DNA of 34,860 nt, taken from the NCBI GenBank assembly GCA_018396655.1, contig JAGTQF010000012.1, forward strand, positions 1-34,860, in the 5' to 3' direction. The notes under the pieces were generated by a model. That model worked only from the letters and a program-made list of their open reading frames with translations, made no database searches and was not told the origin of the DNA. Within the stretch, counting starts at the first letter, position 1; the number at the start of each line of letters is the position of its first letter. This document shows positions 2,383 to 34,041 of the stretch, piece by piece. The translations under genes were made by a program, and so were the position numbers. This DNA is from Candidatus Bathyarchaeota archaeon. Its GTDB lineage: Archaea; Thermoproteota; Bathyarchaeia; Bathyarchaeales; DTEX01.

Positions 2383-2490
2383 ATACTCCACCTCCTTTAT
2401 ACTTGAGTGATATATAATGCAAGCGAAAAATATATATTTGATGCAAATAAAATAGTAATTGGTAAATATCATATATTCCGGGGTGAAAAA
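2383..2490. promoter_or_regulatory. Divergent promoter region between the RHH-GcvH and AbrB-PhoU genes
   Basis: This 108-base gap separates two divergently read putative regulators. It is very AT-rich and contains ATATATATTT and TTATATATC stretches at about 2411-2440 that could serve as box A elements on either strand. Strong ribosome sites lie at both ends: CCTCCTTT on the + strand (GGAGG on the minus strand) before the RHH gene, and GGGGTG six bases before the TTG start at 2491. Both products have DNA-binding-type N-terminal domains, so auto- or cross-regulation here is plausible but not shown. Confidence 0.5.
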
Positions 2491-3567
2491 TTGGAAAGCA
2501 GAAAATTGCAGAAGGTCGGCCGCTCAACAATAACCGTTTCACTTCCAAATAAGTGGATAAAAGAAAATGGCATTAAACCCGGCGATTTAGTCTTTATTCT
2601 GCCGGAGAAGGATGGCACGCTAAGAATAGTTCCAAGCCAGTCCATGCGCCAAGAAGAGATTGAGGAGGAATATGTGATTAATGCTGATGCTTGTGATGAG
2701 CGCGGTATGCTTGAGAGAATAATTGTTGGTGGCTATATTCTTGGGCGTAACGTCATTAGGATTATATCATCGAACCGCATAGAAAAGGAGCATATAGATG
2801 AGGTACGAAGAATCATACGTAAGCTTATTGGTCTAGGCATACTTGAGGAGACGCCAAATAGTATATTATTGCAATGTTCATTAGACCCATTAAGATTTAA
2901 AATTGACATGCTAGTTAGAAGATTGACACTTGTTGTCTCAACAATGCTTTCTGAGGTTATGCAAGCCCTCTTAGAGAATGATGAGACCTTAGCTAAGGAG
3001 GCTATTGAGCGTGAGGATGAAGCTGACACAATTTATTATTTAGCTACTCGCCTCATCCTCTATGTGCAGAAAAGGCCCGATTTAGCTGAGCAGATGGGCA
3101 TAACAGATATAATCTTTATACCAGCTTTACGCTTGATACTTCAATCTTTAGAGTTGATAGGTGATTACTCTGAGGATATAGCAAAAAAGGTGCTAGCTCT
3201 CAAGATGTATAGAAGTAAAATAAGTGAGGATATGATAAAGAGGATTTATGAGCTAGGCGAGGCTGTTCAGACAGTCTTTCAGAAGGCCGTCGACTGCATA
3301 TTTACAGGCGATATTAGGCTCGCTAATAGTGTGCTTGAGATGAAAAACTCCCTTAAAAGTGAGGTTGAAAGACTAATATATGAGCTACCAGAGATACCAT
3401 ACTTAAGAGCCATAGTTTCAGGCTTAGCTAATATAGCAAATGTTGGAGGAATAAATGCCGATATAGCGATAAATAAGGCACTTCAGGAACATAGCAGGCA
3501 TATTGAGGGTGTAGTTAAAATAGTTAAACATGTCTTAATGCAGCCTAAAATATCCAAGAGAAATTGA
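2491..3567 (+). CDS. AbrB-type DNA-binding domain plus PhoU domain regulator
   Basis: This ~358-residue protein belongs to the archaeal PhoU-like regulators. The N-terminal ~45 residues are an AbrB/SpoVT swapped-hairpin domain (RKLQKVGRSTITVSLPNKWI, then KPGDLVFILPE). The C-terminal part has two helical PhoU repeats, with DETLAKEAIEREDEADTIYY and a D-Y-S-E-D-I-A segment typical of the metal-binding PhoU motif (E/D-x-x-x-D). TTG at 2491 is chosen because GGGGTG precedes it; the frame extends upstream to 2407 but that extension overlaps the divergent promoter and lacks a ribosome site. PhoU proteins modulate phosphate uptake and signalling; no pst transporter is next to it, so the regulon is unknown. 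Confidence 0.82.
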   Translation: MESRKLQKVGRSTITVSLPNKWIKENGIKPGDLVFILPEKDGTLRIVPSQSMRQEEIEEEYVINADACDERGMLERIIVGGYILGRNVIRIISSNRIEKEHIDEVRRIIRKLIGLGILEETPNSILLQCSLDPLRFKIDMLVRRLTLVVSTMLSEVMQALLENDETLAKEAIEREDEADTIYYLATRLILYVQKRPDLAEQMGITDIIFIPALRLILQSLELIGDYSEDIAKKVLALKMYRSKISEDMIKRIYELGEAVQTVFQKAVDCIFTGDIRLANSVLEMKNSLKSEVERLIYELPEIPYLRAIVSGLANIANVGGINADIAINKALQEHSRHIEGVVKIVKHVLMQPKISKRN

Positions 3568-7344: not shown

Positions 7345-7563
7345 TCACCTTGGTGGAGGCGATATCATTATAACGTTATCGCCCCTAACTATTATCAGGC
7401 CCAGCTCTTTAACATTCTCCGAGTCAGTAACATCCTCAGCTTTTTCGAGAACTAAGTTCAGATGCTGGTCGAATCCCTGGAGTCTTCCCCTTATACTCTT
7501 CCCGCCTCTAAGCTTTATTAACACTATTTTTCCAAGACTCTCCTCAAGTATTTGTGTTGCCAT
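7345..7563 (-). CDS. Sm-like archaeal RNA-binding protein (LSm)
   Basis: This 72-residue protein consists of one Sm fold. Sm1 is seen in [20 protein letters not shown] followed by [11 protein letters not shown], and Sm2 in [15 protein letters not shown]. Archaeal LSm proteins form heptameric rings that bind U-rich RNA and take part in RNA turnover and tRNA processing. ATG at 7563 is preceded by a GGGGAAGGT ribosome site. The gene leads the LSm-eL37 operon and shares a promoter region with the divergent PUA gene. Confidence 0.95.
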
Positions 7564-7612
7564 TTATCTTCAACCTTCCCCTGGATAGCTCCATCACACT
7601 ATGAGGAAGCGC

Positions 7613-7625
7613 AAATTTATATTTG
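7613..7625. promoter_or_regulatory. Near-symmetric box A shared by the divergent LSm and PUA genes
   Basis: The stretch AAATTTATATTTG reads as a TATA-like element on both strands. Its centre is about 26 bases before the ATG at 7645, the distance expected for a leaderless transcript of the PUA gene. On the other side it is about 56 bases before the LSm ATG, leaving a leader long enough for the visible ribosome site. One TBP-binding site may therefore serve both directions. Confidence 0.5.
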
Positions 7626-7644
7626 TTATGCTAATTTTTATCTT

Positions 7645-8169
7645 ATGAGCACTATTAAATATCGCTTCCCGCTTAGGGAGAGTGAAAGAAAGAGGTTTCT
7701 AAGAGACCTTCTTGAAAGGTTTGGTTTTGATGTTGGGCGAATGTTTGGGGATAGGCCCCAAATCGAGGTTATCGGGACTTTTGAGGATAGTGAGGTTTTT
7801 ATTGTGAATGGTAAGCCACTATTGTTGAGGGTTGGTGAGGACGTTATCCCGACATTAGTATTTGATGGTTTAATCGGTCTTCTTCCAAAGGTTATTATCG
7901 ATATGGGTGCTATCCCGCATGTATGTAATGGTGCTGATATAATGGCTCCTGGCATAGTTAGAATTGAGGGAGAATTTAAGGAGGGAGACTACGCTGTAGT
8001 ATTAGACGAGAGACATGGTAAGGCGATAGCTATAGTTAAAGCTCTCCTAGATTCTGAGAGAGCAAAATCTCTTAAGCATGGGAAAATCTTCAAAAATCTG
8101 CATCATGTCGGCGATACATATTGGAGGATTATAAGGGAGCTTTCCGGAGACGAAAGAGTTAAGACTTGA
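7645..8169 (+). CDS. MCT-1/Tma20-like pre-PUA and PUA domain protein
   Basis: This 174-residue protein matches the archaeal relatives of eukaryotic MCT-1/Tma20, translation-associated RNA-binding proteins linked to ribosome recycling and re-initiation. Residues 1-75 form the pre-PUA domain (RFPLRESERKRFLRDLLERF). Residues 80-160 form a PUA domain, with VIIDMGAIPHVCNGADIMAP, GIVRIEGEFKEGD and the conserved HGKAIAIVKA strand. ATG 7645 is chosen: it lies about 26 bases from a clear box A and gives the family's usual N terminus, whereas the upstream part of the frame overlaps the LSm gene. SepF follows about 50 bases later on the same strand. Confidence 0.88.
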   Translation: MSTIKYRFPLRESERKRFLRDLLERFGFDVGRMFGDRPQIEVIGTFEDSEVFIVNGKPLLLRVGEDVIPTLVFDGLIGLLPKVIIDMGAIPHVCNGADIMAPGIVRIEGEFKEGDYAVVLDERHGKAIAIVKALLDSERAKSLKHGKIFKNLHHVGDTYWRIIRELSGDERVKT

Positions 8170-8217
8170 AGGAACAAACATTTTAGTTGTGAAAAATTTA
8201 GGAGAGAGGGTTTATCC

Positions 8218-8592
8218 TTGGCGAATCCCGGCATAAGTAAAGTTATCGATAAGATAATTGGTAAGCGAAGGGAGAAGAAAGAAGAGATTAAAGTTGAGGA
8301 GAAAGAAGAAGCCCCCACCGTTACACTGACGTCTACCAGTAAAATCTATCTTAAAGCCTTACCTTTACATTCACCTGGGGATTTAGAGAAGATTAAGAGT
8401 GAGATTAAAGCTGGTAACATTCTGATAATTAAGATTGAACCTTCGCCTGAGAGCGATGTTGAGGACATTAAACGCGCCATCGGCGAGTTAAGCGAGTTCG
8501 CAGAGTCAATGGGCTGTGACATTGCTAGGTTAGGTGAGGAACGTATAGTTGTAACGCCCCCAACGGTTCAGATATGGAAGGAAAAGGGCTAG
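8218..8592 (+). CDS. sepF: Archaeal cell-division protein SepF
   Basis: At 124 residues this has the SepF layout. An N-terminal amphipathic helix (about 5-18, GISKVIDKIIGKRR) should bind the membrane, a charged linker follows (18-35), and residues 40-122 form the SepF core (SKIYLKALPLHSPGDLEKIK, GNILIIKIEP, AIGELSEFAESMGCDIARLG, ERIVVTPPTVQIW). Archaeal SepF is the membrane anchor of FtsZ, so the organism should carry FtsZ. The start is TTG at 8218 behind GGAGAGAGGG, about eight bases upstream. It follows the PUA gene and converges with FttA, with 13 bases between stops. Confidence 0.9.
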   Translation: MANPGISKVIDKIIGKRREKKEEIKVEEKEEAPTVTLTSTSKIYLKALPLHSPGDLEKIKSEIKAGNILIIKIEPSPESDVEDIKRAIGELSEFAESMGCDIARLGEERIVVTPPTVQIWKEKG

Positions 8593-8605
8593 AGAAACAA
8601 GATAC

Positions 8606-10522
8606 TCATCTAAGCTTAATTGTCTCTAAGATATCTGGCGCTATAGCATTAACCTTATATTTTCTACGCAGAAAATCGGCAAGGGCTAGGCACTTACTTC
8701 TCTCGCCGTGACATATAATTATGTTCTCCGGCTTAGGCGATATCCTTCGCAAATAATTTATTATCTGCCTTCTATCCGAGTGTCCAGAGAAACCTTCAAC
8801 CGTATGAACCTTTAAGCCAACCTTTATAACCCTAATTTTTCCCTCCTGGTCTACTATTGAGACTTCCTGCGCACCTTTCTGAATTCTACGGCCTAATGTT
8901 CCCTCAATCTGATAGCTGACGAATATCAGCGAGTTCCGCTCATCATGCGCCAGATTCTGGAAATAGTCTATTACTGGACCTCCTTCGAGCATGCCGGCTG
9001 TAGCCATTATTATGCATGGCTCACCCTCAATTATCTCGCTCCTCGCGCTTGGATGTTCAACAATCGTGAAATACTCGGACTCAAAGGGGTTTATGCCCTC
9101 GTTAATTATCTTGTTGCGGACTTCTCTAGAAAGATATTCTGGATAAGCCATATGTATGGCCGTTGACTCTGATATCATGCCCTCAATGAAGACCGGAGCC
9201 TCCTTAAGCTCACCACGTCTCATATACTCGTCTATAACAAGCATTATCTCCTGTGCTCTACCAACAGCTGGCACTGGAATTATTGCCTTTCCACCTCTCT
9301 CCAAGGTCTCATTGATTATTGAGACCAATTTTTTCTCCGCGTCTGCCCTTGAGGGCATAACGTCTGTTGGCGCACTATACGTGCTCTCAGTTATGATGGT
9401 CTCAACCCTCGGAAACTCTGTTGCTGAGGCTTCTAGTAGCATTGTCCTACCATACTTAAAGTCTCCAGTATAAACTATATTGTGGTATCCTTCGCCTACG
9501 TGTAGGTGCACTATTGATGAGCCAAGTATGTGCCCGGCATTATGCAGCGTCAGCCTTATGTCTGGCGCTATATCTGTCACTACACCATAGCGCAGCGGAA
9601 TAGTGTGCAATACCACCTCTCGAACATCTTTCTGGTCGTATGGTAATGGAGCGCCTTGCTTAGATAAAACATCTAAGTAGTCGAGCTGTAGTAGGGTCAT
9701 TAGGCTGAGGTTTGGAAGCGAGCAGTAGACCGGACCATCATAGCCATATTTAAAGAGGTATGGTAGGAAACCACAGTGGTCTAGGTGCGCATGGCTTATA
9801 ACAACAGCATCCAAGGATTCTATGTCGAACTGCGGCGCGTCAAGTCTTGGAAATGCTTCGAAGGGTTTTGTTGAGCCAGGGTTTATGCCACAATCTAGTA
9901 GGACTTGGCTTTCTCTCGTTTGGACTAGGATTGCCGAGCGTCCAACCTCCCTAGCTGAACCAAGCATCGTTATTCTTACGTCGCCAATCTCATATAATAA
10001 TGGACGGAATATCCTCTCGCCAACGTTACGGAGTATTCTCTCCCTTTCTTTACTGCTCGCATATAAAGAGTGCTCAATATGAGCCATTATCTTTGAGGGT
10101 TTAGGTGGGCTTCTTATTGCTCTAGGCCTCCATTTTGTTCTAAGTATTATCTCCTGAAGTGTCGCTCCATTCTTTCCTATAACGAGACCCGGCTTTTTAG
10201 CTTCTATCACAACCTCTCCTAATGGCGGGTCAAATATTATGCTTGTAATCTCGGCCTCTTTCGGCACAATCTCATATATTATCTTCTCAGCCTCTTTCTC
10301 AGGAAGCCTCACTGAGGGGTCTGAGCGCGTAACGATTCTCTTTTTTATAAGATTGACTATTTTTGTGATTATCTGCTCCTGCTCTATTAGTACCTCCGGT
10401 CTTTTTGCGTATACTGCTAATGCTGGGCCCTCGAATTCTATGCGTGTTATCTCAGCCTCTTTTGGAATATGCTCAAGTATTATTTGTCTGATTTCGGCTT
10501 TACTCTTATCGATAGATGGCAA
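8606..10522 (-). CDS. fttA: Transcription termination factor FttA (aCPSF1), KH-beta-CASP ribonuclease
   Basis: About 638 residues. FttA/aCPSF1 is the archaeal relative of CPSF73; it cuts nascent RNA at U-rich sites and ends transcription. Two KH-like domains fill the first ~145 residues (counted from TTG 10528), with the RNA-binding GKNG loop at 118-121. The metallo-beta-lactamase core has GSAREVGRSAI, SHAHLDHCG (HxHxDH at 246-251) and GHILGSS. The beta-CASP part has IPVPAVGRAQE and GMLEGGP, and the final zinc residues are in GFSGHSD and ICHGE. TTG 10522 is preferred over TTG 10528 because GAGGAG lies seven bases before the former and only one before the latter. It appears monocistronic. Confidence 0.95.
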   Translation of the reverse strand: MPSIDKSKAEIRQIILEHIPKEAEITRIEFEGPALAVYAKRPEVLIEQEQIITKIVNLIKKRIVTRSDPSVRLPEKEAEKIIYEIVPKEAEITSIIFDPPLGEVVIEAKKPGLVIGKNGATLQEIILRTKWRPRAIRSPPKPSKIMAHIEHSLYASSKERERILRNVGERIFRPLLYEIGDVRITMLGSAREVGRSAILVQTRESQVLLDCGINPGSTKPFEAFPRLDAPQFDIESLDAVVISHAHLDHCGFLPYLFKYGYDGPVYCSLPNLSLMTLLQLDYLDVLSKQGAPLPYDQKDVREVVLHTIPLRYGVVTDIAPDIRLTLHNAGHILGSSIVHLHVGEGYHNIVYTGDFKYGRTMLLEASATEFPRVETIITESTYSAPTDVMPSRADAEKKLVSIINETLERGGKAIIPVPAVGRAQEIMLVIDEYMRRGELKEAPVFIEGMISESTAIHMAYPEYLSREVRNKIINEGINPFESEYFTIVEHPSARSEIIEGEPCIIMATAGMLEGGPVIDYFQNLAHDERNSLIFVSYQIEGTLGRRIQKGAQEVSIVDQEGKIRVIKVGLKVHTVEGFSGHSDRRQIINYLRRISPKPENIIICHGERSKCLALADFLRRKYKVNAIAPDILETIKLR

Positions 10523-11857: not shown

Positions 11858-12313
11858 ATGAGCAGGACGAAGCCAATAATCACGCTGCTTGGCATCGGAG
11901 AGACTAAAATCAATGAAGTATTCGTTCATAAAGGCCCCGGCTCAAAATGTCCTCAATGCAAGTATTTTAATGTTTGTGTGAAGAATCTGGAGGAGGGGCG
12001 AGCTTACATAGTTGTTGGTGTTCGCGATAAAACCTTGAGATGCGAAATGTACAATTTAGAGATGCGTGTTGTTGAGGTCGTTGAGGCGGATATTCAAGCT
12101 TCCGTGGTTTCTAGGCAGGCTATTGAGGGTGCAATAATAACCTTTCGTCCACAGAACTGTAGTGAGCATGGCTGTGAAAACTTTATGTTATGTTCACCCG
12201 AATATTTAATGGAAAATGACCGATGCGAAGTTGTTAGAGTTTACGAGATGCTCCGGTGCCCCAGAGGTCTCCAGCTTAGGAGGGTGATGTTGAGGAGGGC
12301 TCCTCCCTCTTAA
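11858..12313 (+). CDS. UPF0179 family protein
   Basis: This 151-residue archaeal protein is of unknown function. It matches UPF0179 in ITLLGIGETKINEVFVHKG at the N terminus, the cysteine cluster GSKCPQCKYFNVC, and the second cluster NCSEHGCENFMLC followed by CEV. Six or more conserved cysteines point to a zinc or iron-sulfur site. It begins three bases after the egsA stop and so forms a unit with it. Its last 38 bases overlap the 3' end of the convergent FKBP gene, so the last ~12 residues (RRVMLRRAPPS) may be less constrained. Confidence 0.85.
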   Translation: MSRTKPIITLLGIGETKINEVFVHKGPGSKCPQCKYFNVCVKNLEEGRAYIVVGVRDKTLRCEMYNLEMRVVEVVEADIQASVVSRQAIEGAIITFRPQNCSEHGCENFMLCSPEYLMENDRCEVVRVYEMLRCPRGLQLRRVMLRRAPPS

Positions 12314-12986
12314 AGACTTCGATGAAGCGCACCGTTTTCTTTTCCGGAAAGAACTTTTGTATGTCCATGAAGATTCCGCGCTTAATAACCTGTATCCCCT
12401 CTATGAAGAAAGCTTCTTCAGGAACATTTATCGTGACGCTGTCCTCACCAATTTCTAGTGAGAACTTTCCAATATCTACTTGCGGTATTCTTCTGTGAAT
12501 TAGGGCCTTAATCTTCTCCTCAGTAGTCTCAATCTTCTTTCTCACTGTAACTTCATATATAAGCGTCTTGCCAGCTAATGGTGGATTAAAGTCCAGCTGA
12601 ACCCTTCCACCACCAATAGCCCGAATGGTGGCTACTTTACCATTAACCTCAACCCTCATCCCAACTCTTGGTGTAATTCCCTGCGCAACAAATCTTCTCA
12701 GCGGATACATCTTCACTTTCTCTGGGTCTCTATTTCCGAAGCCCTTCTCGGGTGGAATCTCAATGGTTGCCGTCTTTTCTAATTCCATGCTTTGTATAGC
12801 TTCTTCAAGAGCCCTTAGAACCCAGCCTTCACCTATAACAACAAGCTTCGGCTCATATACTCCACCCTCCTGGTATATGCCCTCTCTCCGTGAAACCTCC
12901 TCTATTGTTGTATCAAAGACTTCACCGGTCTCAGCAACCCTAGCAACATAATCTATGAGCACGAAGTCCCCTTTCTCAAATGGCAA
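12276..12986 (-). CDS. FKBP-type peptidyl-prolyl isomerase (SlyD-like, long archaeal type)
   Basis: The ~236-residue protein has the long archaeal FKBP layout: an FKBP domain interrupted by an insert-in-flap domain, followed by a C-terminal domain. The FKBP parts are KGDFVLIDYVARV, ETGEVFDTT, VVIGEGWVLRALEEAIQSME and IEIPPEKGFG. The insert has GMRVEVNGKVATIRAIGGGRV, and LDFNPPLAGKTLIYEVTV is the returning strand. The C-terminal part (from about 160) is found only in long archaeal members. It should act as a cytoplasmic folding helper. TTG 12986 is chosen because GAGGTG lies six bases upstream and it gives MPFEKGDFVLIDY, the usual family N terminus; TTG 13019 gives 11 more residues. It overlaps UPF0179 tail to tail. 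Confidence 0.92.
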   Translation of the reverse strand: MPFEKGDFVLIDYVARVAETGEVFDTTIEEVSRREGIYQEGGVYEPKLVVIGEGWVLRALEEAIQSMELEKTATIEIPPEKGFGNRDPEKVKMYPLRRFVAQGITPRVGMRVEVNGKVATIRAIGGGRVQLDFNPPLAGKTLIYEVTVRKKIETTEEKIKALIHRRIPQVDIGKFSLEIGEDSVTINVPEEAFFIEGIQVIKRGIFMDIQKFFPEKKTVRFIEVFKREEPSSTSPS

Positions 12987-13054
12987 CCCAAACACCTCAG
13001 CCAGTAGATTAGAAACCAAAAATGCAAACCTTACTAATTAAGTTTTTCATGGTT

Positions 13055-13738
13055 TTAGAGTTTTATCGTTTTAAGCTCAACATTTAAACCATCCTCATTA
13101 ATGTATATTATTGCGTAATTTCCCTGTCTAGCTGGTCCAGGATTAACTATCAATGAGCTATCTATCAAATCTTTCCCCTTAGCCTCATGTATATGCCCAC
13201 ATATTGTTAACAATGGTTTATGTTTCTCAATGAAACTCCTTATACTGGAGCTCCCAACGTGCATGCCCATAAATGTTCTATCAGTTCTGGTATTTTTCGG
13301 CGGAGAATGGGAGGCCAGAACAATGCTTCTCCCATGGACTCCACCAATATTGTTTAAGCATCTATCAAGTATTTTCGCTATCTCATTCTCACTCATCTCA
13401 AAGAATGTGTTGAATGGTGTTATTGGACTTCCACCAACGCCCAAAAAAACCAAGCCGCCTAAAACAGCTCCTGAGCCATGTATACATGTTACTCCCTTAA
13501 GGTTTATTTCCATGAGTGATGGGGGGTCGCAGTTTCCGGGAACGAAGAAGACTGGTATCCCTGCTTCAGCTAACGTCCTCAGAAGAGTCTCAGCCTGCTC
13601 TTTTGTGCCAAAGTTTGTTATATCACCACATACAACAATTAAGTCTGCTTTCTCCCTTCTCGCGCCCACCGCGAGGGCTTCAAATGCGGGTTTATAGCCG
13701 TGGAAATCCGTTCCGGCAAGCACTATCATATCTCTCAT
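13055..13738 (-). CDS. Calcineurin-like metallophosphoesterase coupled to HerA
   Basis: This is a 227-residue single-domain calcineurin-like phosphoesterase. All metal-site residues are present: D11-x-H13 (GTDFHG), D39 (CGDITNFG), N69 (PGNCDP), H144 (ASHSPP) and H182-x-H184 (CGHIH). The ATG at 13738 overlaps the HerA stop codon (ATGA), so translation is coupled. Small archaeal proteins of this type are close to YfcE/MPE phosphodiesterases and shorter than Mre11 (usually about 350-400 residues), lacking Mre11's capping domain. Its position at the end of a NurA-HerA unit suggests, but does not prove, a role in DNA-end processing. A plain phosphodiesterase role is the alternative. Confidence 0.88.
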   Translation of the reverse strand: MRDMIVLAGTDFHGYKPAFEALAVGARREKADLIVVCGDITNFGTKEQAETLLRTLAEAGIPVFFVPGNCDPPSLMEINLKGVTCIHGSGAVLGGLVFLGVGGSPITPFNTFFEMSENEIAKILDRCLNNIGGVHGRSIVLASHSPPKNTRTDRTFMGMHVGSSSIRSFIEKHKPLLTICGHIHEAKGKDLIDSSLIVNPGPARQGNYAIIYINEDGLNVELKTIKL

Positions 13739-15306
13739 GCATCCTGTAGGTGTAGCGGTAAAGCTGAGGACTTTCTTTCGTTCACGATTTGCTCCTCCAT
13801 CTTTTCCCAGGCACTCTTGGCAAATGCAACCGCTTTCCTCGGATACTCCTCAACGTTCACCTCAACTATTATTGGGAATGGTGTTGGAACTGCTAGTCCC
13901 CAGAGCATTGCCTCGTGGTCCGCTAGGCCGGGTAGATAATCCTTAAGCCTCTCTGAGCCATACTCTGTATATTCTAGGATTGCGTCTTGGTCATTCCCAC
14001 TCTTAAGCCTAAAGCATGCCACAGAATTACATTGGGAGATACAGCTCTTAATTACGTATGCTGGCCTTTGTGTCATGACTATTAAGCCCACATTATATCC
14101 GCCAGCTTGGCTTATCGTCTCAATCATTGATGCCTTAACCTCCGACTGGGCGCTTGACTCCCTCACTTCAACGCCCTTCTCCGGCGCGAAATACTGAGCC
14201 TCCTCAATAACGATTATGCACGCGAAGTCACCGTAATCCTTTCTCTTCATCGCATAGTCTCTTATCTCGTTTAGGATTCGACTTGCAGTTCTATGCTGAG
14301 CCTCGATGTCTGTGTCAACTGAGAAGTCTATTATCAGCGTGAAGTTGCTTTTTACCTCCTCAATTATGTCGAGCGGCTCACTCCACCGGTCTAGGAAGCC
14401 ACCCCTATTCTCTATAAGCCACTTGATGCTCTGGAAATACTTACTCTTGCTCTCCTGGGTTTTAAATATGCTCCCCCGCTCAATAACCTCATGAACTTTC
14501 TCCATTAAGCTTTTGCTCGTTAGCTTTTCGCCGTTTGATAGGAGAGCTCTGGCAGCCTCTAGGACGGCATCCCGTTCCCTACCCTTAAGTCCAAGCTTCT
14601 CAACAATTATTCTTGGGTCATTTATGGCTGGTGTGAATTTTGTGTAGGGTATTATTCTCGCGCCATACTTGACTAGGCTGCTATACTCACCCCTCCTATC
14701 AAATATTACGAAGCGGGGTCTAGGCTTGAGATTAGATGATTTCGCAACCATATTGATGATGAAGCTGGATTTCCCAGACCTGGTCATTCCAGCGACGAAC
14801 ATATGCCCCTTAGCGATGGCATTTAGGTCTATGTAGGCTGGTATATTTGTTCCCCTAACCTTCCCTATTTCAAGCATCAATGAATCTCCAGCTCCACCTC
14901 TAGATATGAAGAAGCATTGAAGCATCTCCTCACTTGGCTCATAAACGTAATCCCATGGTGAGGGCGCGACCTCCATTGTTCTCCATTTCCCCATCTCATC
15001 ATAGTATCCGAGAATCTCAGCGGATGCAATAGTATACTCAAGCCTCTTCCCATAGTCTGCTTTACGACCCTTCTTCCCAGCCAATGGCCCTATTCTACCA
15101 GTAACCATCTCTGGATTGTATGGTTGAACCTTAAATGTTCTGACCAGAACATATATTCCGGGCTTAAGGGGATGCTCAATAAAATAGAAGTGGTTGACTT
15201 TAACTTGGGCGTCCTCTGCGACAACAAATGTTAGTAGGTCATGTGTGCATCCGGATAATGCGCATCCAATAGGCTTTAAGCCATCCTTCAAAGCCATATC
15301 ACTCAC
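13735..15306 (-). CDS. HerA-family ATPase/translocase (first pair)
   Basis: This 523-residue hexameric-type ATPase has a HAS-barrel-like N-terminal region (to about 155), Walker A GMTRSGKSS at 173-181, Walker B IIVIEEAQ at 364-371, a sensor TQRP at 412-415 and the arginine-finger region FRLKSG at 432-437. HerA pumps DNA to drive resection with the NurA nuclease. It starts at GTG 15306, nine bases after the NurA stop, and overlaps the phosphoesterase by ATGA. It differs strongly from the other HerA in the window (487 residues, Walker A GSTGCGKSW), so the two are old paralogues and not a recent duplication. It is likely cotranscribed with NurA. Confidence 0.9.
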   Translation of the reverse strand: MSDMALKDGLKPIGCALSGCTHDLLTFVVAEDAQVKVNHFYFIEHPLKPGIYVLVRTFKVQPYNPEMVTGRIGPLAGKKGRKADYGKRLEYTIASAEILGYYDEMGKWRTMEVAPSPWDYVYEPSEEMLQCFFISRGGAGDSLMLEIGKVRGTNIPAYIDLNAIAKGHMFVAGMTRSGKSSFIINMVAKSSNLKPRPRFVIFDRRGEYSSLVKYGARIIPYTKFTPAINDPRIIVEKLGLKGRERDAVLEAARALLSNGEKLTSKSLMEKVHEVIERGSIFKTQESKSKYFQSIKWLIENRGGFLDRWSEPLDIIEEVKSNFTLIIDFSVDTDIEAQHRTASRILNEIRDYAMKRKDYGDFACIIVIEEAQYFAPEKGVEVRESSAQSEVKASMIETISQAGGYNVGLIVMTQRPAYVIKSCISQCNSVACFRLKSGNDQDAILEYTEYGSERLKDYLPGLADHEAMLWGLAVPTPFPIIVEVNVEEYPRKAVAFAKSAWEKMEEQIVNERKSSALPLHLQDA

Positions 15307-15315
15307 AACAGTCTT

Positions 15316-16512
15316 CTATATTCCGGTTTTTAAGCGTTCCCCATCCCTTAAAACCCATGGCTCACCATGCTGGAGGGCTAGGAGATTCAAGTCTTCTGGA
15401 TTCAATTCGCCGCTTCTAACTAGGTCTAATGCCTTAGAGTAAATCATGAATGTTCTAATGTTCGAGACGGTCGTCGTAATCCTAGTTATGTTATCAACCT
15501 CATTTATTATGAAGGGTATTCCATTTTCTTCCTCCGAGGTTGTAAAAATTAATGCCCCAACCTCATCCAGCCTATCTAAGCAGTATTTTGGCATCTCAAG
15601 GCGGAAGGGCGTTGTAAAACCAGTCTTAACATAGGAGAAATATACGCTTAAAAAATCCTTAGCGTAATTCTCCGGTATCCCCATCCTATGGCAGTTCTCC
15701 CTATACTTGTTGAGTACGGTATTTCTATCTGAAATTGGCTTTGGCACAGTATACTCGCCCAGATTAAGCACCAAATCCAATAGGGCGGTATCCCTCATCT
15801 TCGGCGCGCCAAGCTCCGCGCATATATCATTCATCCTGGTTCTCTTCACGAAGCCAACTATCGGAATATCCTTCTCATAGCAAGCGAGAAGCAAACCAAT
15901 TAACCTGTTTACTGTGGACTCGAAGTCCTCTTCATACTCCCTAGTCGAACCAAATATTGGTGGGAGGAGCCAGAAGTTTATGAGGAGGGGGCCGTCTAAA
16001 AGTACACATTTCGGATTCCACCGCTCAATAGCCTCGACGGTAACCTCAAACTGCAACTTAGAGGCTAAGAGAGACTCCCTCTCATGAGAACGGAACTCAT
16101 CGGGCCATATCTGCGGTTCACCAACCTTAAAGATTGGCTCATCCATGATTGTCCATCCTTCTGCGCATAGCGCCGCCGAAGCATAAAGTGGTATAAACGC
16201 GGACCTAAAGTCAGCTCCATTATTTCCAGCATCAGAGGCTACAGCCCTTAAATGCGCAGCCCTTTCATTCTGGACAAATCTTTTAATATCGATTTTTCCC
16301 CTCAAATCCCTCAGCAGACTCTTTCTTCTCTCATTATAATCCTTAAGTCTCCGAATTATTATGTCGGTTCCGCCATCAATCAATTCGCTATATAGGTCTG
16401 GATGTATGGTTTCATGCTCAGCCTCGCCGAGAACCGGGAAGAGGCGCTCTCTAAATCCTCTCAGGCCGCCTTTAAATTCCTCTCTATGGTCTCTGCTCAA
16501 CTTAAACCCCAA
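15316..16512 (-). CDS. NurA-family nuclease (first pair)
   Basis: The 398-residue protein fits the NurA domain: ASDAGNNG (Asp94 as the first metal ligand), a long insert, LLDGPLL with Asp173, and FVKRTRMND with Lys223. A C-terminal segment (IPFIINEVDNITR) supplies the last conserved strand. NurA is a Mn-dependent 5'-3' nuclease that works on DNA threaded by HerA. The start is TTG at 16512; no ribosome site is clear, but a TTTAAAAGG box A about 30 bases upstream suggests a leaderless transcript. HerA follows after nine bases. The metal ligands appear intact, so it is probably active. Confidence 0.85.
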   Translation of the reverse strand: MGFKLSRDHREEFKGGLRGFRERLFPVLGEAEHETIHPDLYSELIDGGTDIIIRRLKDYNERRKSLLRDLRGKIDIKRFVQNERAAHLRAVASDAGNNGADFRSAFIPLYASAALCAEGWTIMDEPIFKVGEPQIWPDEFRSHERESLLASKLQFEVTVEAIERWNPKCVLLDGPLLINFWLLPPIFGSTREYEEDFESTVNRLIGLLLACYEKDIPIVGFVKRTRMNDICAELGAPKMRDTALLDLVLNLGEYTVPKPISDRNTVLNKYRENCHRMGIPENYAKDFLSVYFSYVKTGFTTPFRLEMPKYCLDRLDEVGALIFTTSEEENGIPFIINEVDNITRITTTVSNIRTFMIYSKALDLVRSGELNPEDLNLLALQHGEPWVLRDGERLKTGI

Positions 16513-16536
16513 ATAAAAATAAAGTAGTTTGAGAGC

Positions 16537-16546
16537 CTTTTAAATT
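16537..16546 (-). promoter_or_regulatory. Box A for the NurA-HerA-phosphoesterase unit
   Basis: On the minus strand CAAATTTAAAAGG forms a box A-like element whose centre is about 30 bases before the TTG at 16512. There is no strong ribosome site before that TTG, which fits a leaderless mRNA. It lies in the 48-base gap after the nitroreductase stop, so the NurA-HerA-phosphoesterase unit may be transcribed on its own as well as by read-through. Confidence 0.45.
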
Positions 16547-16560
16547 TGCAGTTCCATAGT

Positions 16561-17076
16561 CTAGGATTTGAAGGGATATGGTTTACCATACTCATCTAGG
16601 AAGAATATTTCTTCCCTAGATTTTCTCAGCCTTGGAGGAGGCTTCTCATCCGGGAAACCCACCGTTAAGAGTATTACTACGGATAAATTCTCTGGAATCT
16701 TCAAGATTTGCTTAACCTTATCCTCTTCGAATGCGCCTATCCAGCAGACTCCTAACCCCTCTTCATACGCTTCAAGGGTCATGAAGCTTGCTGCTATAAT
16801 TGGGTCTTGTCTATACCATCTGGAGATATTCTGGTCTCCTAGAACCGCTATCACTGCTCCGGCTTCACCCACAAACTTCTGGCCCCTACAGGCGTCTATA
16901 AGTTTATTCTTGATGGATTCGTCTTTCACGACTATGAATGACCATGGCTGCCTATTTGCCGCTGAAGGTGCAAGTCTACCAGCCTCCAAAATTCTCTCCA
17001 GAGCGTCTTCTGGTATTGGCTCTTTCCTATATTTCCTAATGGTTCTCCTCTCAGATATTATCTTGAACACTTCCAT
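16561..17076 (-). CDS. Nitroreductase-family FMN oxidoreductase
   Basis: This 171-residue flavoprotein is of the short archaeal nitroreductase type. It has RRTIRKYRKEPIP (FMN phosphate contacts), APSAANRQPWSFIVV, the central helix region ASFMTLEAYEEGLGVCWIGA, and a closing LLTVGFPDEKPPPRLR. The family forms homodimers binding FMN and reduces varied substrates with NAD(P)H. The substrate cannot be told. ATG 17076 follows GGAGG with eight bases between, and a TTATATATTA box A lies about 39 bases upstream. It sits between two NurA genes; whether it has any link to DNA ends is unclear. Confidence 0.9.
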   Translation of the reverse strand: MEVFKIISERRTIRKYRKEPIPEDALERILEAGRLAPSAANRQPWSFIVVKDESIKNKLIDACRGQKFVGEAGAVIAVLGDQNISRWYRQDPIIAASFMTLEAYEEGLGVCWIGAFEEDKVKQILKIPENLSVVILLTVGFPDEKPPPRLRKSREEIFFLDEYGKPYPFKS

Positions 17077-17110
17077 AGGGGATGCCTCCGAAAATAAGCG
17101 CTTATTAAGT

Positions 17111-17120
17111 AATATATAAC
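17111..17120 (-). promoter_or_regulatory. Box A upstream of the nitroreductase gene
   Basis: The minus strand reads GTTATATATT in the 78-base gap after the second NurA stop. Its centre is about 39 bases from ATG 17076, giving a short leader that includes the GGAGG ribosome site at 17085-17089. This makes the nitroreductase the start of a transcription unit separate from the HerA/NurA pair upstream. Confidence 0.55.
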
Positions 17121-17154
17121 GTTATTCCAAAATTCGATTGGAAAGATTAAATTT

Positions 17155-18342
17155 TTAGAAGGGCTTCTGCGGATTTAAGAAAGCAAAGAACATTTTTATT
17201 GAATCTAAGCTTCCACCATCCTTTATCATAGCCTCTAAAACCCTGCCCTCAATCTCCGAGACAAATTCCTCAGTAAACTTTGAGGATATGTTAACTAAAT
17301 TATCTACCAAGTCTAATGCTAGGGGAAGGTTTGTGGCATCGTTAAATAACTCGCTTTCCGACAGTATCTCTTCAAGGTTTATTGTATGCGGGTACTCCAG
17401 CTCGCACGGTGGGAGCCCACCCACAAACCTCACCTGCGCCCTCCTCATGCTCCTTAACCCATCTTTTCGGACGCCATACTCCTCTAGTTTCTCAAAGGGC
17501 TCATATGCCTTATCCTCCGCTCTCTTCTGAATATCCTTGCCACTTTCGCCCTTCGAGATTAGGCGCGCAACTCCAGTATATATTACTGGCAGCTTCTCGC
17601 CTAGGAGACTATCGTATTTAAAGTAGGATTTCTCGGGCATTATTAGCGATAGCAAATGCTTATCTATCACGTTCACTAGCGAATTCTCCCCAAACTCTAA
17701 AGCCATATATCCGCCCAAAACCCTACTGTGACTCCTCTTAACAACCCCGATAACCTTGCGGCTCTCCCTCAACTCTTCGGTCATCTCAAAAGTTTCTTTC
17801 AATATCCGTTTCTTACTTTCCGATTCTAGGAGACCGAGCTTCTTCATGTCTAGCGCTGGATAAACGAATCCATAGAAGCTCCCGTCCATAAAGAGTATGT
17901 CGCACTCATCTAAGGTTTCAAGAGCCATCTTTCTCTCATAATATGTTGTTAAGAGGGAGAAGAAGTGTCTACTCTCATCCTGCGAAAGAGCCTGTTTTCT
18001 CCTAAATATTCCAGCCTCAAGCCTCTCGCTTCTCCTCTCAATACCTCTCAAACATACGACGCCGGTGGCAAATACACCATATCTTATGCCTAGCCTCTCA
18101 CTGAATCTAGGTGACCTAGAGCTGTCAACAGCAGCGATAATCGACTTCCTATTTTGCTTCGGAAAGGCTTGTATGTGGGGGGATACTATACTTCTGAGAC
18201 TCTTCACGTTCTCATCGATTCTCTTGATAATCTCAATTAGCCTCTGGGCTTCTTCCTCGGCTATACGGAAGAACTCATGCTGCAAATCCAGTGGAAGCTT
18301 AACCCACTCAGGCAGCTCATCAACGTAGCTAGCCATATTCAT
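17155..18342 (-). CDS. NurA-family nuclease (second pair)
   Basis: A 395-residue NurA-type nuclease. A helical N-terminal arm (about 20-60) leads to the first active-site strand IIAAVDSSRSPR (Asp73), followed by the family's RYGVFATGVV. FMDGSFYG carries Asp153, and GVVKRSHSR carries Lys202. FVGGLPPCELEYP near 310-325 and the following helix match the C-terminal half of the NurA fold. It has little similarity to the other NurA beyond these motifs. It begins eight bases after the HerA stop at 18351, so both are cotranscribed. ATG 18336, two codons on, is an equally good start since AGGATGG is close to the first ATG. Confidence 0.88.
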   Translation of the reverse strand: MNMASYVDELPEWVKLPLDLQHEFFRIAEEEAQRLIEIIKRIDENVKSLRSIVSPHIQAFPKQNRKSIIAAVDSSRSPRFSERLGIRYGVFATGVVCLRGIERRSERLEAGIFRRKQALSQDESRHFFSLLTTYYERKMALETLDECDILFMDGSFYGFVYPALDMKKLGLLESESKKRILKETFEMTEELRESRKVIGVVKRSHSRVLGGYMALEFGENSLVNVIDKHLLSLIMPEKSYFKYDSLLGEKLPVIYTGVARLISKGESGKDIQKRAEDKAYEPFEKLEEYGVRKDGLRSMRRAQVRFVGGLPPCELEYPHTINLEEILSESELFNDATNLPLALDLVDNLVNISSKFTEEFVSEIEGRVLEAMIKDGGSLDSIKMFFAFLNPQKPF

Positions 18343-18350
18343 CCATCCTT

Positions 18351-19814
18351 TTAGGCTGGAGGTTTATATGTGATTAACAGCGGAACCGGTGAGGGATTCA
18401 TTGCTCCAGCAAAATAAAATCTTCCGGGCTTGAGCTGAAGCAGCTGGTTTGGCGATATCCCATAGGGTGATAGCCACTCTGATGCTCCACCCTCCCCACT
18501 TGCATCTAATGGGTGTATTCTGCCGAAGAAATGCGTGTTCAGGTTTCTTCTGACGGCTGCATTTACGCCTATCTCACCCTTGATTCCCTGGGCTATAAGC
18601 GTTAGATTCAGCATGCGCTTCCTACCCAATGCCGCTAGATTCTTTATCATCTCGCATGTTTCAGCCTGTATTCCACGAGCATCCCATGGAGCATACTGTG
18701 GCGCCTCATCTATTATTAGGGCTATGCCAAGGTTTCTTCCAGACTCCATTAAACTATAGAGGTATTTCGATAGCGATAAGAAGAAGCCTAATTTAGCCTC
18801 CGTTAAAGCTCCTCCCATATCGATGGCTAATGTTCCCTTCCGCTCGAGCTCCTGGAATAATTCCTCTATACTTAAAATCCCCATAACTGGATAGAGGTCT
18901 TGGGGCTTAAGCCTTCTGAATATTCTCCTCTGGGCCCTTTGCGCAGCTGCCCTAGAATCCTCCCTCTTAATACTCGATACAACACTATCAATGTAAGCTT
19001 TCAATTCTTGGTAGAGGTGTTCAGCTGGATTCTCCGAGTTGAGATAAGCCTCCTTCACCTTCGCTGTCCAGCCATCAATAAACTCATCGAAGCAATCCTT
19101 AATTACATCGTTTTTTGAGAAATTGAATGTTTTATCTTGAAAGTAGCTTAATATTGATTCTTCATCGAGAGCGATTTCAGAAATCCTAATAACCTCATCA
19201 TTTTTGAGCAGAGGAGCGTAATCCGACCCGCTCCAATCAAGTATGAGAACTTTATAGCCAGCCTTCCTATATAATGGCACAAGTATATTCCTAGTGAACC
19301 ATGACTTCCCACAGCCAGTGCTCCCGTAAACGCCAACATGATAGGGGAGGAAAGTCTTATCAAAAGGTATCTTCCATGATGGATGACCCTCAAGATAGGC
19401 ATCAGACCATATAACGTCACGCCCCTTGACGATATCATCGAAGGGTCTATCCTCATCCTCAAGAAGAAATACCGGAGACCTAGGCTGAATTATTGCTCTG
19501 TTAGGCTCTATGCCCTCATCGGTTACTGCGCCTATCGGCTCTATAGCGAACGAGTATACTTCTCTCGCTCCAGAGGGCTCACCACCATGCCTCAAATATG
19601 CTACATCCGGTCTATAGGATGTGTGGCTTAGAAACTCATTCTTCCCTAGACCCTCCCTTAAAACGCCCAATATTTTGTTCACCAGCCTCTCTTCTCCACC
19701 ATTCTTTATTAAAACGAGCTCCTCGGCTAATACGCTGTTCTCCATGCCCTTAAGGAGTATTAGCCTAGCCCTAGTCTCGGTGGCTCCGTCCGCAACCCTA
19801 CCTATAAACTTCAA
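18351..19814 (-). CDS. HerA-family ATPase/translocase (second pair)
   Basis: This 487-residue ATPase has an N-terminal HAS-like barrel (to about 150), Walker A GSTGCGKSW at 164-172, Walker B ALIIDEAPQYAP around 365-376, and the motor-family AQGIKGEIG near 408-416 with a likely arginine finger in HFFGRIHP. It should form hexamers and drive the adjacent NurA nuclease. The start is TTG 19814 with GGTGGGG five bases upstream. A GATATATATGCC box A near 19872-19883 is a likely promoter. Compared with canonical HerA the helical insert between residues 230 and 310 is long and charged, possibly contacting its NurA partner. Confidence 0.88.
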   Translation of the reverse strand: MKFIGRVADGATETRARLILLKGMENSVLAEELVLIKNGGEERLVNKILGVLREGLGKNEFLSHTSYRPDVAYLRHGGEPSGAREVYSFAIEPIGAVTDEGIEPNRAIIQPRSPVFLLEDEDRPFDDIVKGRDVIWSDAYLEGHPSWKIPFDKTFLPYHVGVYGSTGCGKSWFTRNILVPLYRKAGYKVLILDWSGSDYAPLLKNDEVIRISEIALDEESILSYFQDKTFNFSKNDVIKDCFDEFIDGWTAKVKEAYLNSENPAEHLYQELKAYIDSVVSSIKREDSRAAAQRAQRRIFRRLKPQDLYPVMGILSIEELFQELERKGTLAIDMGGALTEAKLGFFLSLSKYLYSLMESGRNLGIALIIDEAPQYAPWDARGIQAETCEMIKNLAALGRKRMLNLTLIAQGIKGEIGVNAAVRRNLNTHFFGRIHPLDASGEGGASEWLSPYGISPNQLLQLKPGRFYFAGAMNPSPVPLLITYKPPA

Positions 19815-19929: not shown

Positions 19930-21027
19930 TTAAGCCGGCTTTAGAAGAATTATCCATGAACGTAACCCACCATGCATTATCTGTCTGCTCTCAAGGACCT
20001 CGTAACCTAAATTTGCGCCCAAACTCTCCAAAAGCTCCCTATGAACAGTTAAGAGGCAGACCCTTGAATTATCATGTAAGAAGCGCTTAAGCGAGCTTAA
20101 AAATTCCGCGTACATTTTTGGTATAATTTCTAGTCTTCCGCTCCTTATACCGAAGGGAAGATTTGATATTACCTTATCAACCATCCATCCAGCTGGCAGA
20201 GCTCTCTCAAGCCTTCTCGAGTCGCCAACAATAAATCTAACTTTATCCTTAACTCCAGCAGCCTCAGCATTCCTCCACGCACCCTCAATGCTCTTCGGGC
20301 TTATATCGACCCCAATGGGCTCTATCTCCCGGCATATCTGGGCTGCCTCAATTACTATTGTTCCCCCACCACAAAACGCATCCAAAACTCTATCACCAGG
20401 CTTAACATCCGCTATTCTTAGCATTGCATACGCTATTACTGGGTTTAGAGCTGAGTGATGCTGAAAGGCTCTTGGATACCGTATTCTAAGCGATGTTCTA
20501 GTCATCTGTATTCCCACAATGCATTTATTATAGGCTACATCAACCCTAACAATTGTCTCTGGATTCTTTAGGTCGACCTTCCGCCCATATTTATCAACGA
20601 TTGCTTGCCCAGCAACCCTCTGAACATCTATGCTCGTGAAATCATGCTCCCCAACCCTCTCACATGTAACCCTAAATGTTGAGCCTAATGGGAAATCACA
20701 ACCATAAACTCCACTATATATCTGACTTAGCCCGCTTTTATCCCTTTCAACATCAAAAACTTTAATTAAGCGGATTATGTGCTCTATGCTCCTAAAAGCG
20801 AAAACCCTATTCACATGGCTCTCCGGTATCTTTAGAGAGACTCTACCACTAACATTACAAAACCTTAAATCCGCCTCTAAAACATCAAGTCTCTCACGAG
20901 CCTCCATCAAAACAATATCCTCTAACCCTGGAACTGTTGTAACCATAATCCATGATATACCTTCTCTAAGCATACCTACGCTCCCAGCATCAACCCCAGC
21001 CCCTAACATAATTAAACTTCTCTTCAC
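19930..21027 (-). CDS. THUMP-domain tRNA guanine N2-methyltransferase (Trm14-like)
   Basis: About 365 residues from GTG 21027. A THUMP/NFLD-type RNA-binding domain occupies residues 28-170. The Rossmann methyltransferase domain follows, with DAFCGGGT at 216-223 (AdoMet loop), GVDISPKSIEGA at 239-250 (acidic end of strand 2), GDSR at 268-271 and the catalytic NLPFG at 289-293 in place of N-P-P-Y. That order and the NLPFG/YG motif are found in Trm14/TrmN-type enzymes that make m2G in tRNA (position 6). The N terminus is uncertain: ATG codons at residues 7, 19 and 28 are alternatives, and the family usually begins close to residue 25. It is divergent from the SPOUT gene. Confidence 0.85.
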   Translation of the reverse strand: MKRSLIMLGAGVDAGSVGMLREGISWIMVTTVPGLEDIVLMEARERLDVLEADLRFCNVSGRVSLKIPESHVNRVFAFRSIEHIIRLIKVFDVERDKSGLSQIYSGVYGCDFPLGSTFRVTCERVGEHDFTSIDVQRVAGQAIVDKYGRKVDLKNPETIVRVDVAYNKCIVGIQMTRTSLRIRYPRAFQHHSALNPVIAYAMLRIADVKPGDRVLDAFCGGGTIVIEAAQICREIEPIGVDISPKSIEGAWRNAEAAGVKDKVRFIVGDSRRLERALPAGWMVDKVISNLPFGIRSGRLEIIPKMYAEFLSSLKRFLHDNSRVCLLTVHRELLESLGANLGYEVLESRQIMHGGLRSWIILLKPA

Positions 21028-27530: not shown

Positions 27531-28490
27531 TTAGTGCATTCCCTCCCTTTTAATGGCTTTATTAAGCTCCTCAATGAAAGGCTTGAAGTTTTCTTCCGGC
27601 ACCCTTGCGCCCGCCGCCGTTGGATGTCCTCCCCCACTCCCGCCAAGCTTCGGCGTTATCTGGCGCAGTATCCTGTTTAGATCTATGTCCCTTCTACATG
27701 TTCTCAAGCTCATGTCTATAAAGCCCTTTCTCCGCTCTCCGGCTAAGCCGACTATTGCTCCAGCTAGGGCTCTAGCGTATATTGCTGTCTTGCCCAGCGA
27801 GAATGGGAAGTCGAGCACATAGGCGATGCCATCGTAAACATGAAGATACCCTCCTATCATCTGAATAGCCTCCTCCTCTCTCCTAGTGTTCTCAAGCGCC
27901 GACTCAAGTAGCCTTTTATGCATGCTTGGAGGCTGACCACTAGCAAGGTGGACTATAACCTCACGCTTAAAATCATGCTCTCTTTTGCGTCCCTCAAGCC
28001 CCTGAACCAGAATGCCCGTCTCAAGGTATATTGTTCTCTTATCCCAATTGCATAGCAGCTGGCTTATCACAGGCGTATCATCGAGATAGTCTGCTATGGC
28101 TCCGTAAATCGCAATGCGGCTCATCCTATCGCTAAACCCCTCCCTAAAAACAATGTATGTCAGCTCGGAAGCGGAAGACCCAGTATCATGAACGATTCTT
28201 CCGGGTATATCTTTTACCGCAAGCCCCTCTGGAAGTGGATGATGGTCAATATAGATGAGCTCACCATCCCTACTTATAGCGGAAAACCTTTCCAGTATAG
28301 CGAGCAAACTATCCTCGGAAAAAGCTATATCGCATATTATCACTTTATCGCCAGCCCGAACAGCCTCCAAATCCCCAAGCAACCCATAAGGATGCGTAAA
28401 AAAGACACGCGCATCAGGATTAGCCGCCAAAGCCAAAGCACCAGCACAAACACCATCCCCATCACTATGAGTAAAAACCCAAACGGCCAT
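27531..28490 (-). CDS. DHH-DHHA1 family phosphoesterase
   Basis: This 319-residue protein has a DHH phosphoesterase domain, THSDGDGVCAG (Asp10, Asp12), ICDIAFS (Asp54) and IDHHP (82-84), and a C-terminal DHHA1 domain ending in GGGHPTAAG (286-294). These bind two Mn/Mg ions and substrate. Family members act on nanoRNA, cyclic dinucleotide products, pAp or ssDNA (RecJ/GAN type). At 319 residues it is smaller than GAN and lacks an extra OB domain, so an oligonucleotide or nucleotide phosphodiesterase (NrnA-like) role seems more likely. GGTGATG precedes ATG 28490. The next gene downstream is the small nuclease-like protein. Confidence 0.87.
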   Translation of the reverse strand: MAVWVFTHSDGDGVCAGALALAANPDARVFFTHPYGLLGDLEAVRAGDKVIICDIAFSEDSLLAILERFSAISRDGELIYIDHHPLPEGLAVKDIPGRIVHDTGSSASELTYIVFREGFSDRMSRIAIYGAIADYLDDTPVISQLLCNWDKRTIYLETGILVQGLEGRKREHDFKREVIVHLASGQPPSMHKRLLESALENTRREEEAIQMIGGYLHVYDGIAYVLDFPFSLGKTAIYARALAGAIVGLAGERRKGFIDMSLRTCRRDIDLNRILRQITPKLGGSGGGHPTAAGARVPEENFKPFIEELNKAIKREGMH

Positions 28491-32904: not shown

Positions 32905-33006
32905 CTAATGAATAGCGTTTTCTTCTAATAATAATCTCGCAATATATTCTCTCCTGCGCATAAGCCACCTATAATATATTAATAGGCATCTTTGGCTAAG
33001 ACCTTT
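32905..33006 (-). pseudogene. Remnant of a GT2-family gene, internal/C-terminal fragment
   Basis: The 237-base gap between the GT2 gene and wecB has a short open frame on the minus strand that reads SQRCLLIYYRWLMRRREYIA and ends at TAG 32905. It matches the intact GT2 protein next to it around residues 234-248 (PKRLLYRHYRWLMRR). At the DNA level, 22 bases (32954-32975) are identical to 33302-33323 in that gene, and weaker identity continues for about 20 bases. The fragment then ends about 70 residues before the intact protein does. It has no start and no catalytic part, so it is a decayed copy. Confidence 0.7.
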
Positions 33007-33093: not shown

Positions 33094-34041
33094 TTATAAT
33101 TCCACGTTAAACTTTCTTTTTGCATGTTCTCTTAGTAGTTGTGGGTAATCACCATAAATATCTCTCCGATATTTAGCGAGATTTGAAAGATATTTCTGAA
33201 AGTAAAGATTCGCTGCCAAGTCGATATCTTCTGTTCCAAAGTCCTCTAATATTCTCTTTTTCACATACTCATCTAAACTTGATTTGCCCTCAAGCCCTTC
33301 TCTGCGCATAAGCCACCTATAATGTCTATAAAGCAACCTCTTTGGGCTTCTAACAGTTCTTAGATGGAAACTCAATGCCCTCCTAATATAAATAACATTG
33401 TAATATGCTAGCTGAGCAATTAAACTATCATGATGGCCTACTTTTTTATAATGCAATTTAGGGTTCCACGTGAAGAGCCAGTGCTCAATGTGGAGAGGGC
33501 TTTTTGGATCTTGATGCCATAAATCGCCGTCTAAACATATATGCGGCCAATATATGAGATAATATTTTCTCTCGTCAAGAGACTCTAATAGCTCTCTTAT
33601 TAATGGGGCTGAATCATCCCTTAATATAAAATCCGCATCCCAAATTAGAATCCATTTGTATTTAGCTATCGAAAGCCCTAGATTTCTTACATAAACCATA
33701 TCCCCTAAGGGTATTCTGTACATCCTTATGGGAATATTATGCTTTTCATGAAGCTCCTCTATAATAGCTGGAGTTCTATCCGTTGATGAATCTAATACAA
33801 CAATCTCATTAACAAGATCTTTCAACGAGAGTAGGGAGACTTCGACCCAATCCTCTTCATTATAGGTACACGTAATCGCAGATATGCCATTCTCCCGCCC
33901 AACAATATTCGCTGGAGGAATCAATCTAAGATAGAAAGATAAGGATGACACTATGTTTCTAAGCAGGAATGTGCCCTCTCGCCCAAGCACCCTTCTAGCT
34001 AATATCCTCCAATGCATGAAGCATCTCAATAAATTTAACAT
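33094..34041 (-). CDS. GT2-family glycosyltransferase
   Basis: This is a 315-residue GT-A glycosyltransferase. The N-terminal arm (1-50) precedes the donor domain with NGISAITCTYNEEDWVEVSL (51-70), VVLDSSTDRTP, GDMVYVRNLGLSIAKYKWIL and the metal-binding WDADF (Asp135-x-Asp137). HIEHWLFTWNPKLHYKKVG and HDSLIAQLAYY resemble the acceptor side of polysaccharide-type GT2 enzymes, and the C-terminal helical tail is basic. No membrane helix is obvious. ATG 34041 is used; an AT-rich TTTTAATATAAT run starts only ten bases upstream, so ATG 34017 (residue 9) could be the true start. Remnants of a related gene flank it on both sides. Confidence 0.85.
   Translation of the reverse strand: MLNLLRCFMHWRILARRVLGREGTFLLRNIVSSLSFYLRLIPPANIVGRENGISAITCTYNEEDWVEVSLLSLKDLVNEIVVLDSSTDRTPAIIEELHEKHNIPIRMYRIPLGDMVYVRNLGLSIAKYKWILIWDADFILRDDSAPLIRELLESLDERKYYLIYWPHICLDGDLWHQDPKSPLHIEHWLFTWNPKLHYKKVGHHDSLIAQLAYYNVIYIRRALSFHLRTVRSPKRLLYRHYRWLMRREGLEGKSSLDEYVKKRILEDFGTEDIDLAANLYFQKYLSNLAKYRRDIYGDYPQLLREHAKRKFNVEL

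Follow-up and report, generated by a model that had tools for sequence, protein, structure and literature searches.

Two unlike HerA-NurA pairs in tandem in a Bathyarchaeial genome, one of them altered at both catalytic centres

The cellular role of the archaeal HerA-NurA complex is disputed. A 34,860-nucleotide stretch of a Candidatus Bathyarchaeota archaeon (assembly GCA_018396655.1, contig JAGTQF010000012.1, positions 1 to 34,860; hereafter the window) encodes two HerA-NurA pairs side by side on the minus strand. Pair A keeps all known catalytic residues of the nuclease NurA and the motor HerA, as judged from the sequences. Pair B belongs to a conserved lineage whose NurA has Gln for the catalytic Glu and whose HerA has Gly for the arginine finger. 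An earlier note on this DNA, made from the letters alone, had expected both pairs to be active, which for B is not supported, and had missed these changes. The two pairs represent separate, old lineages and no recent duplication, and it is the altered lineage B that constitutes the new part of the finding. With a complex that has been kept despite the loss of key catalytic residues, beside an intact pair, nature itself has set the structural role apart from the catalytic one and provides a ready comparison for assays.

Two old lineages at one site

The four genes of the two pairs are as follows, in the order of transcription.

HerA_A: 18351..19814, minus strand; 487 amino acids; Pfam DUF87, 57.9 bits; Walker A GSTGCGKS (164), Walker B IIDEA, arginine-finger motif LGRK.
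NurA_A: 17155..18342, minus strand; 395 amino acids; Pfam NurA, 33.7 bits; D73, E136, D153, K202 and D347.
NurA_B: 15316..16512, minus strand; 398 amino acids; Pfam NurA, 61.7 bits; D94, D173, K223 and D340 kept, Q154 replacing the catalytic Glu.
HerA_B: 13735..15306, minus strand; 523 amino acids; Pfam DUF87, 66.4 bits; Walker A GMTRSGKS (173), Walker B VIEEA, G402 (AGGYN) replacing the arginine finger.

The order HerA, NurA, nitroreductase, NurA, HerA, phosphoesterase described earlier was confirmed for all six genes between positions 13055 and 19814, each on the minus strand. The two Asp and the Lys recognized before in both nucleases (D73, D153 and K202 in A; D94, D173 and K223 in B) are also in place, as are the Walker A and B motifs of both motors. 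The Pfam scores for DUF87/HerA, NurA, the nitroreductase and the metallophosphoesterase all lie above the curated cut-offs, that for NurA being 21 bits. A draft archaeal genome of 1.32 Mb (94% complete) includes the window as its contig C4, and the only matches to NurA (two) and DUF87 (two) in the whole genome fall within the window. More trust can be placed in the HerA count than in the NurA count, because the NurA model PF09376 is not exhaustive; in one relative (G010) it missed NurA_A, which was recovered by a lineage A profile.

The two pairs share no significant BLASTP similarity, with best E values of 1.4 for HerA and 3.8 for NurA, while the NurA_A and NurA_B profiles can be aligned over 296 columns at 96%. 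Relatives were sampled from 40 stretches (one of them a 10-base filler), from 20 around relatives of NurA_A, and from 14 more. Grouping by BLAST revealed at least four NurA-HerA lineages, A to D, in related Bathyarchaeia. Each forms one clade in the HerA tree (68 rows; SH-aLRT support of 100 for A, 96 for B, 100 for C and 87 for D) and again in the NurA tree (64 rows; 98, 89, 100 and 100, respectively). Both are quick trees with long branches between the lineages, so the branching order among these is not settled. The profile of lineage C barely aligns with those of A and B, so that its residues were matched only locally. In a weaker further lineage, X, NurA is about 590-620 residues long and HerA about 590; this lineage was seen at L055:7321-10961, with relatives in G074, G082, G067, G097, G090, G105 and G112. 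The HerA_C gene next to NurA_C in genome G009 (L107:4272-5850) is broken into two frames by either a frameshift or an assembly error.

Adjacent HerA and NurA belong to the same lineage in 64 of 65 pairs, the exception being found in G077, a genome of the same class, at the point where a B pair and a C pair meet in tandem. Given this gene adjacency, each HerA may assemble with its own NurA partner as HerA6-NurA2. Across the phylum, lineage A gave strong matches (E <= 1e-36) in 63 of 300 sampled genomes and weak ones in 8 more; its named carriers (46 loci) include Hecatellales, Brockarchaeota, Caldarchaeum and other Nitrososphaeria. Strong matches to lineage B were found in 12 of the 300 genomes, with 14 more weak.

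The mirror order of the pairs is the one feature that suggests a recent tandem inverted duplication within this genome. However, the copies lack BLASTP similarity, all genes lie on one strand, and A and B are widely distributed as separate clades. A recent duplication is therefore rejected, as the earlier note had proposed, and we give it practically no chance. The order HerA then NurA is fixed in 25/25 lineage A pairs, and the order NurA then HerA in all pairs of lineages B (23/23), C (13/13) and D (3/3); the mirror order thus results from lineages with their own, different gene orders standing in tandem on one strand.

Two unlike pairs are not in themselves new, since the available text of Bernick 2012 (PMC3396285) describes at least three nurA-herA pairs per species in Pyrobaculum, one of them with csm6 near CRISPR. 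Most of the related genomes studied here also carry at least two pairs, and the view that one pair per archaeon is the norm is not supported. As far as that text describes them, the Pyrobaculum pairs resemble the present ones in forming several separate lineages per genome with matched HerA and NurA trees; here, however, the pairs are adjacent, a nitroreductase takes the place of csm6, and no CRISPR array or cas gene was seen. Another likeness is the double pair of G077 (locus L146), which also holds two lineages in tandem, with a B of the Gln type, but head-to-tail, beside Mre11-Rad50, with C rather than A as partner and no nitroreductase. Neither adjacent A and B pairs nor a conserved lineage lacking both the Glu and the arginine finger was found in the open-licence papers searched, which also yielded no paper on Bathyarchaeia with NurA.

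Catalytic centres of the two pairs

In NurA_A, residues D73, E136, D153, K202 and D347 are invariant in a 30-row alignment. The AF2 model built from this alignment (pLDDT 84.4) has the S. solfataricus NurA 2ygk as its best match (Foldseek E 4e-10; Z 19.9, rmsd 3.6, 269 residues), followed by Thermococcus and Pyrococcus NurA (Z 19.5 to 9x1m), with endonuclease V at Z about 10. Sequence searches of the PDB with NurA_A, NurA_B, NurA_C and NurA_D returned no NurA, and a scan of genome contigs with the NurA_A sequence alone gave no match. In S. islandicus NurA, D58, E116, D133 and K202 are critical according to the accessible part of the study (PMC4351679). In NurA_A, D73, E136, D153 and K202 come in the corresponding order, and in both proteins 17 residues separate the E from the D that follows it; the pairing is based on order and spacing and not on a residue-level structure alignment. 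On the motor side, the P-loop, Walker B and the arginine-finger motif LGRK/S/T are present in 25/25 HerA_A sequences, although a Walker B pattern script missed some rows whose letters differ.

Pair A thus resembles the Mre11-operon type of HerA-NurA known from Sulfolobus/Saccharolobus and Thermococcus in its NurA fold, its adjacent P-loop HerA and its catalytic D, E, D and K. The present system differs from that type in having two pairs per cluster and Mre11-Rad50 elsewhere, and in the absence of the Glu and the arginine finger from B. Moreover, both A and B have Asp for the canonical His at the fourth position (D347 and D340). Lineage C carries an invariant His there (H320), matched by eye from the spacing to a shared Pro.

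NurA_B is a NurA homologue, both by its Pfam score and by its profile match to A at 96%. The profile alignment pairs D73 with D94, E136 with Q154, D153 with D173, K202 with K223 and D347 with D340. Besides E136 of lineage A, Q154 is aligned with E122 of lineage D and with E145 of non-Bathyarchaeial B. The site holds Gln in 14/14 Bathyarchaeial NurA_B and Glu in 7/7 members of families f22, f26 and f31; two distant sequences (L068 and L153) among the 23 rows were left out of this count because their alignment is unsure. On the NurA tree, which 20 of these rows entered, the Glu/Gln switch is a single change. The Gln type is accompanied by the changes V93 to S, A158 to T and H353 to R, and comparison of the NurA_B rows revealed no new invariant acid specific to it on the helix of Q154. 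An E89Q form of endonuclease V has reportedly been trapped with DNA in a structure, which suggests that a Glu-to-Gln change is disabling in a NurA-like fold.

The motor of pair B is altered as well. G402 of HerA_B falls opposite the first R in the REGRKFG motif of S. solfataricus HerA (4d2i), which counting places at residue 381, and the AGGYN motif is found in 19/19 core rows that cover the site, after two truncated rows were dropped; the distant L068 and L153 have R. In the accessible text on S. islandicus HerA, R381K abolishes the ATPase (PMC4351679). The arginine finger is also missing from the non-Bathyarchaeial HerA_B whose partner NurA keeps its Glu, and therefore the change in the motor is older than that in the nuclease. 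Both pair B genes are nevertheless under purifying selection: between G000 and G007, NG86 dN/dS is 0.09/1.14 for HerA_B and 0.18/1.54 for NurA_B, with synonymous sites near saturation and several other comparisons giving no usable dS.

Some HerA_B genes of families f22 and f26 are interrupted by an intein within the P-loop (VAGM / TRSGKS), namely at L148:9133-12288 and L151:5842-8352 and also in L152 and L154. The two inteins scanned matched Pfam Intein_splicing at 75 and 72 bits, and one has a LAGLIDADG domain.

Proposed roles and gain or loss within the genus

The most likely reading, which we consider an even call, is that pair A performs ordinary end processing and pair B is a repair-linked complex of weak or altered activity. 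The accessible text of a recent study has HerA6 driving double-stranded DNA into the NurA dimer, and Thermococcus HerA-NurA cutting both strands without making 3' overhangs (PMC12977600). Pair A would be a working machine of this kind, in which the HerA hexamer feeds DNA to the NurA dimer, and it would work with Mre11-Rad50 encoded on another contig. Neither gene is present in the window, as the earlier note had observed, but both lie next to each other on contig C2 (L036:6250-7470 and 7467-9551) of the same genome. No HerA or NurA was found in the 19 kb examined around them, so that an mre11-rad50-herA-nurA operon is not what this genome has.

Pair B would still assemble around DNA, since its P-loop and Walker B are kept. 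Its cutting and pumping would be weak, or would depend on a different metal or a different arginine. In the repair pathway that it shares with A, it would act as a slower translocase, an end-holding clamp or a regulator of A; it would also be easily lost where A is present. A repair context is suggested by the locus of G077, where one strand carries NurA_C, HerA_C, NurA_B, HerA_B, Mre11 and Rad50 in this order, with B flanked by C and Mre11-Rad50. A bolder version, which we regard as unlikely, holds that pair B is a pseudo-enzyme, conserved while its nuclease and motor centres were dismantled, the arginine finger first and the catalytic Glu later. As such it would now regulate an intact HerA-NurA or hold DNA for it, in this genus even within the same operon.

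Several points weigh against a weakened pair B with a repair role. The NurA_B structure model was too poor (pLDDT 40.8), so it is the profile alignment that puts Q154 in the active site, and the nuclease could employ another acidic residue nearby, E156 or E163. Since non-Bathyarchaeial HerA_B has no arginine finger either while its NurA keeps the Glu, HerA_B may be fully active by means of a different arginine. Of the 14 genomes with a Gln-type B, 13 have a further pair (A or C), but the exception, G001 (89% complete), seemingly has B alone. Moreover, a second pair accompanies Glu-type B in 7/7 genomes (lineage X, with a 610-residue NurA; G090 also has D), and co-occurrence therefore fails to distinguish the Gln type. 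The idea that Gln-type B is set apart by always having a second pair was rejected on this ground.

The genus was represented by 11 genomes, G000-G010. Pairs A and B stand side by side in four (G000, G004, G007 and G008) and on different contigs in G010; three have A without B at this site (G002, G005 and G006), G001 has B with no A found, and G003 and G009 have neither. The last three are 87-89% complete, and the absence of A from them was judged from the DUF87 search. In all three genomes without B at the site, the phosphoesterase and FKBP genes are retained. Because the A-only genomes are not grouped together in the HerA_A tree, B has probably been lost at least twice. In G006 (97% complete), pair A is the sole pair by both Pfam searches and Mre11-Rad50 is present; A alone can therefore suffice.

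This patchwork, with the A-only genomes scattered in the tree, would also fit plain turnover, in which A and B are interchangeable resection enzymes, A arrived beside B and is replacing it, and the double locus is transient without any division of labour. However, the changes at both catalytic centres of B were fixed long before A came, and many other genera have kept B alongside C. Turnover is a serious alternative, though somewhat improbable.

The earlier note had suggested that one pair may serve ordinary resection and the other a separate purpose, such as defence or replication restart. A division of labour indeed appears likely, but a defence role is not supported here for either pair. 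It would make one pair an antiviral effector, comparable to bacterial HerA-Sir2 and HerA-DUF4297 or to the suggested Pyrobaculum NurA-HerA near CRISPR. In its favour, bacterial defence complexes include HerA as a module, the accessible text of the T. kodakarensis study (PMC12977600) raises the idea that HerA-NurA itself is antiviral, and PADLOC HerA models match HerA_A and HerA_B, as they would any HerA. On the other hand, the neighbours tested are housekeeping genes (FttA, aRF1, FKBP26, a G1P dehydrogenase-like gene and other core genes), the synteny is retained across genera, and PADLOC gave no match among 10 further proteins of the window. The locus showed no CRISPR-like repeat array, and with a nitroreductase between the pairs the locus is not of the CRISPR-associated nurA-csm6-herA kind. 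Additionally, scans of viral contigs and plasmids found no relatives, and Foldseek gave no match to viral models at E <= 0.001. Defence is accordingly judged quite improbable.

Surroundings of the locus

The remaining genes of the cluster and its flanks are listed below.

THUMP/UPF0020 RNA methyltransferase: 19930..21027, minus strand; Pfam 125.8 bits; upstream, a conserved neighbour of pair A in this genus.
Nitroreductase: 16561..17076, minus strand; 171 amino acids; Pfam 114 bits; between pairs A and B.
Calcineurin-like metallophosphoesterase: 13055..13738, minus strand; 227 amino acids; Pfam Metallophos_3, 74.8 bits; overlapping the end of HerA_B by 4 bases.
FKBP26-type peptidyl-prolyl isomerase: 12276..13019, minus strand; identified by Pfam; downstream, a neighbour conserved by synteny.

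Transcription thus runs from the THUMP methyltransferase through HerA_A, NurA_A, nitroreductase, NurA_B, HerA_B and metallophosphoesterase to FKBP26. The genes from HerA_A to the phosphoesterase probably form an operon, given their intergenic gaps of -4 to 78 bases. The nitroreductase directly follows NurA_A in 7/7 genomes with pair A at this site, and UPF0179 is another of the core genes that surround it. Pair A of a Brockarchaeota genome likewise has relatives of the window methyltransferase (39%) and of the window nitroreductase (43%) in its vicinity (L119:12928-14501), and in Brockarchaeota a DHH-DHHA1 (RecJ-like) gene comes after NurA_A (L119:8899-9849). A gene of this family is also present in the window (27531-28490), unclustered and about 8 kb from HerA_A. 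Elsewhere in the window, the protein encoded at 2407-3567 combines a MazE/AbrB-like domain with a PhoU domain. Near the right end, a 22-base direct repeat occurs as identical copies at 32954-32975 and 33302-33323, 348 bases apart.

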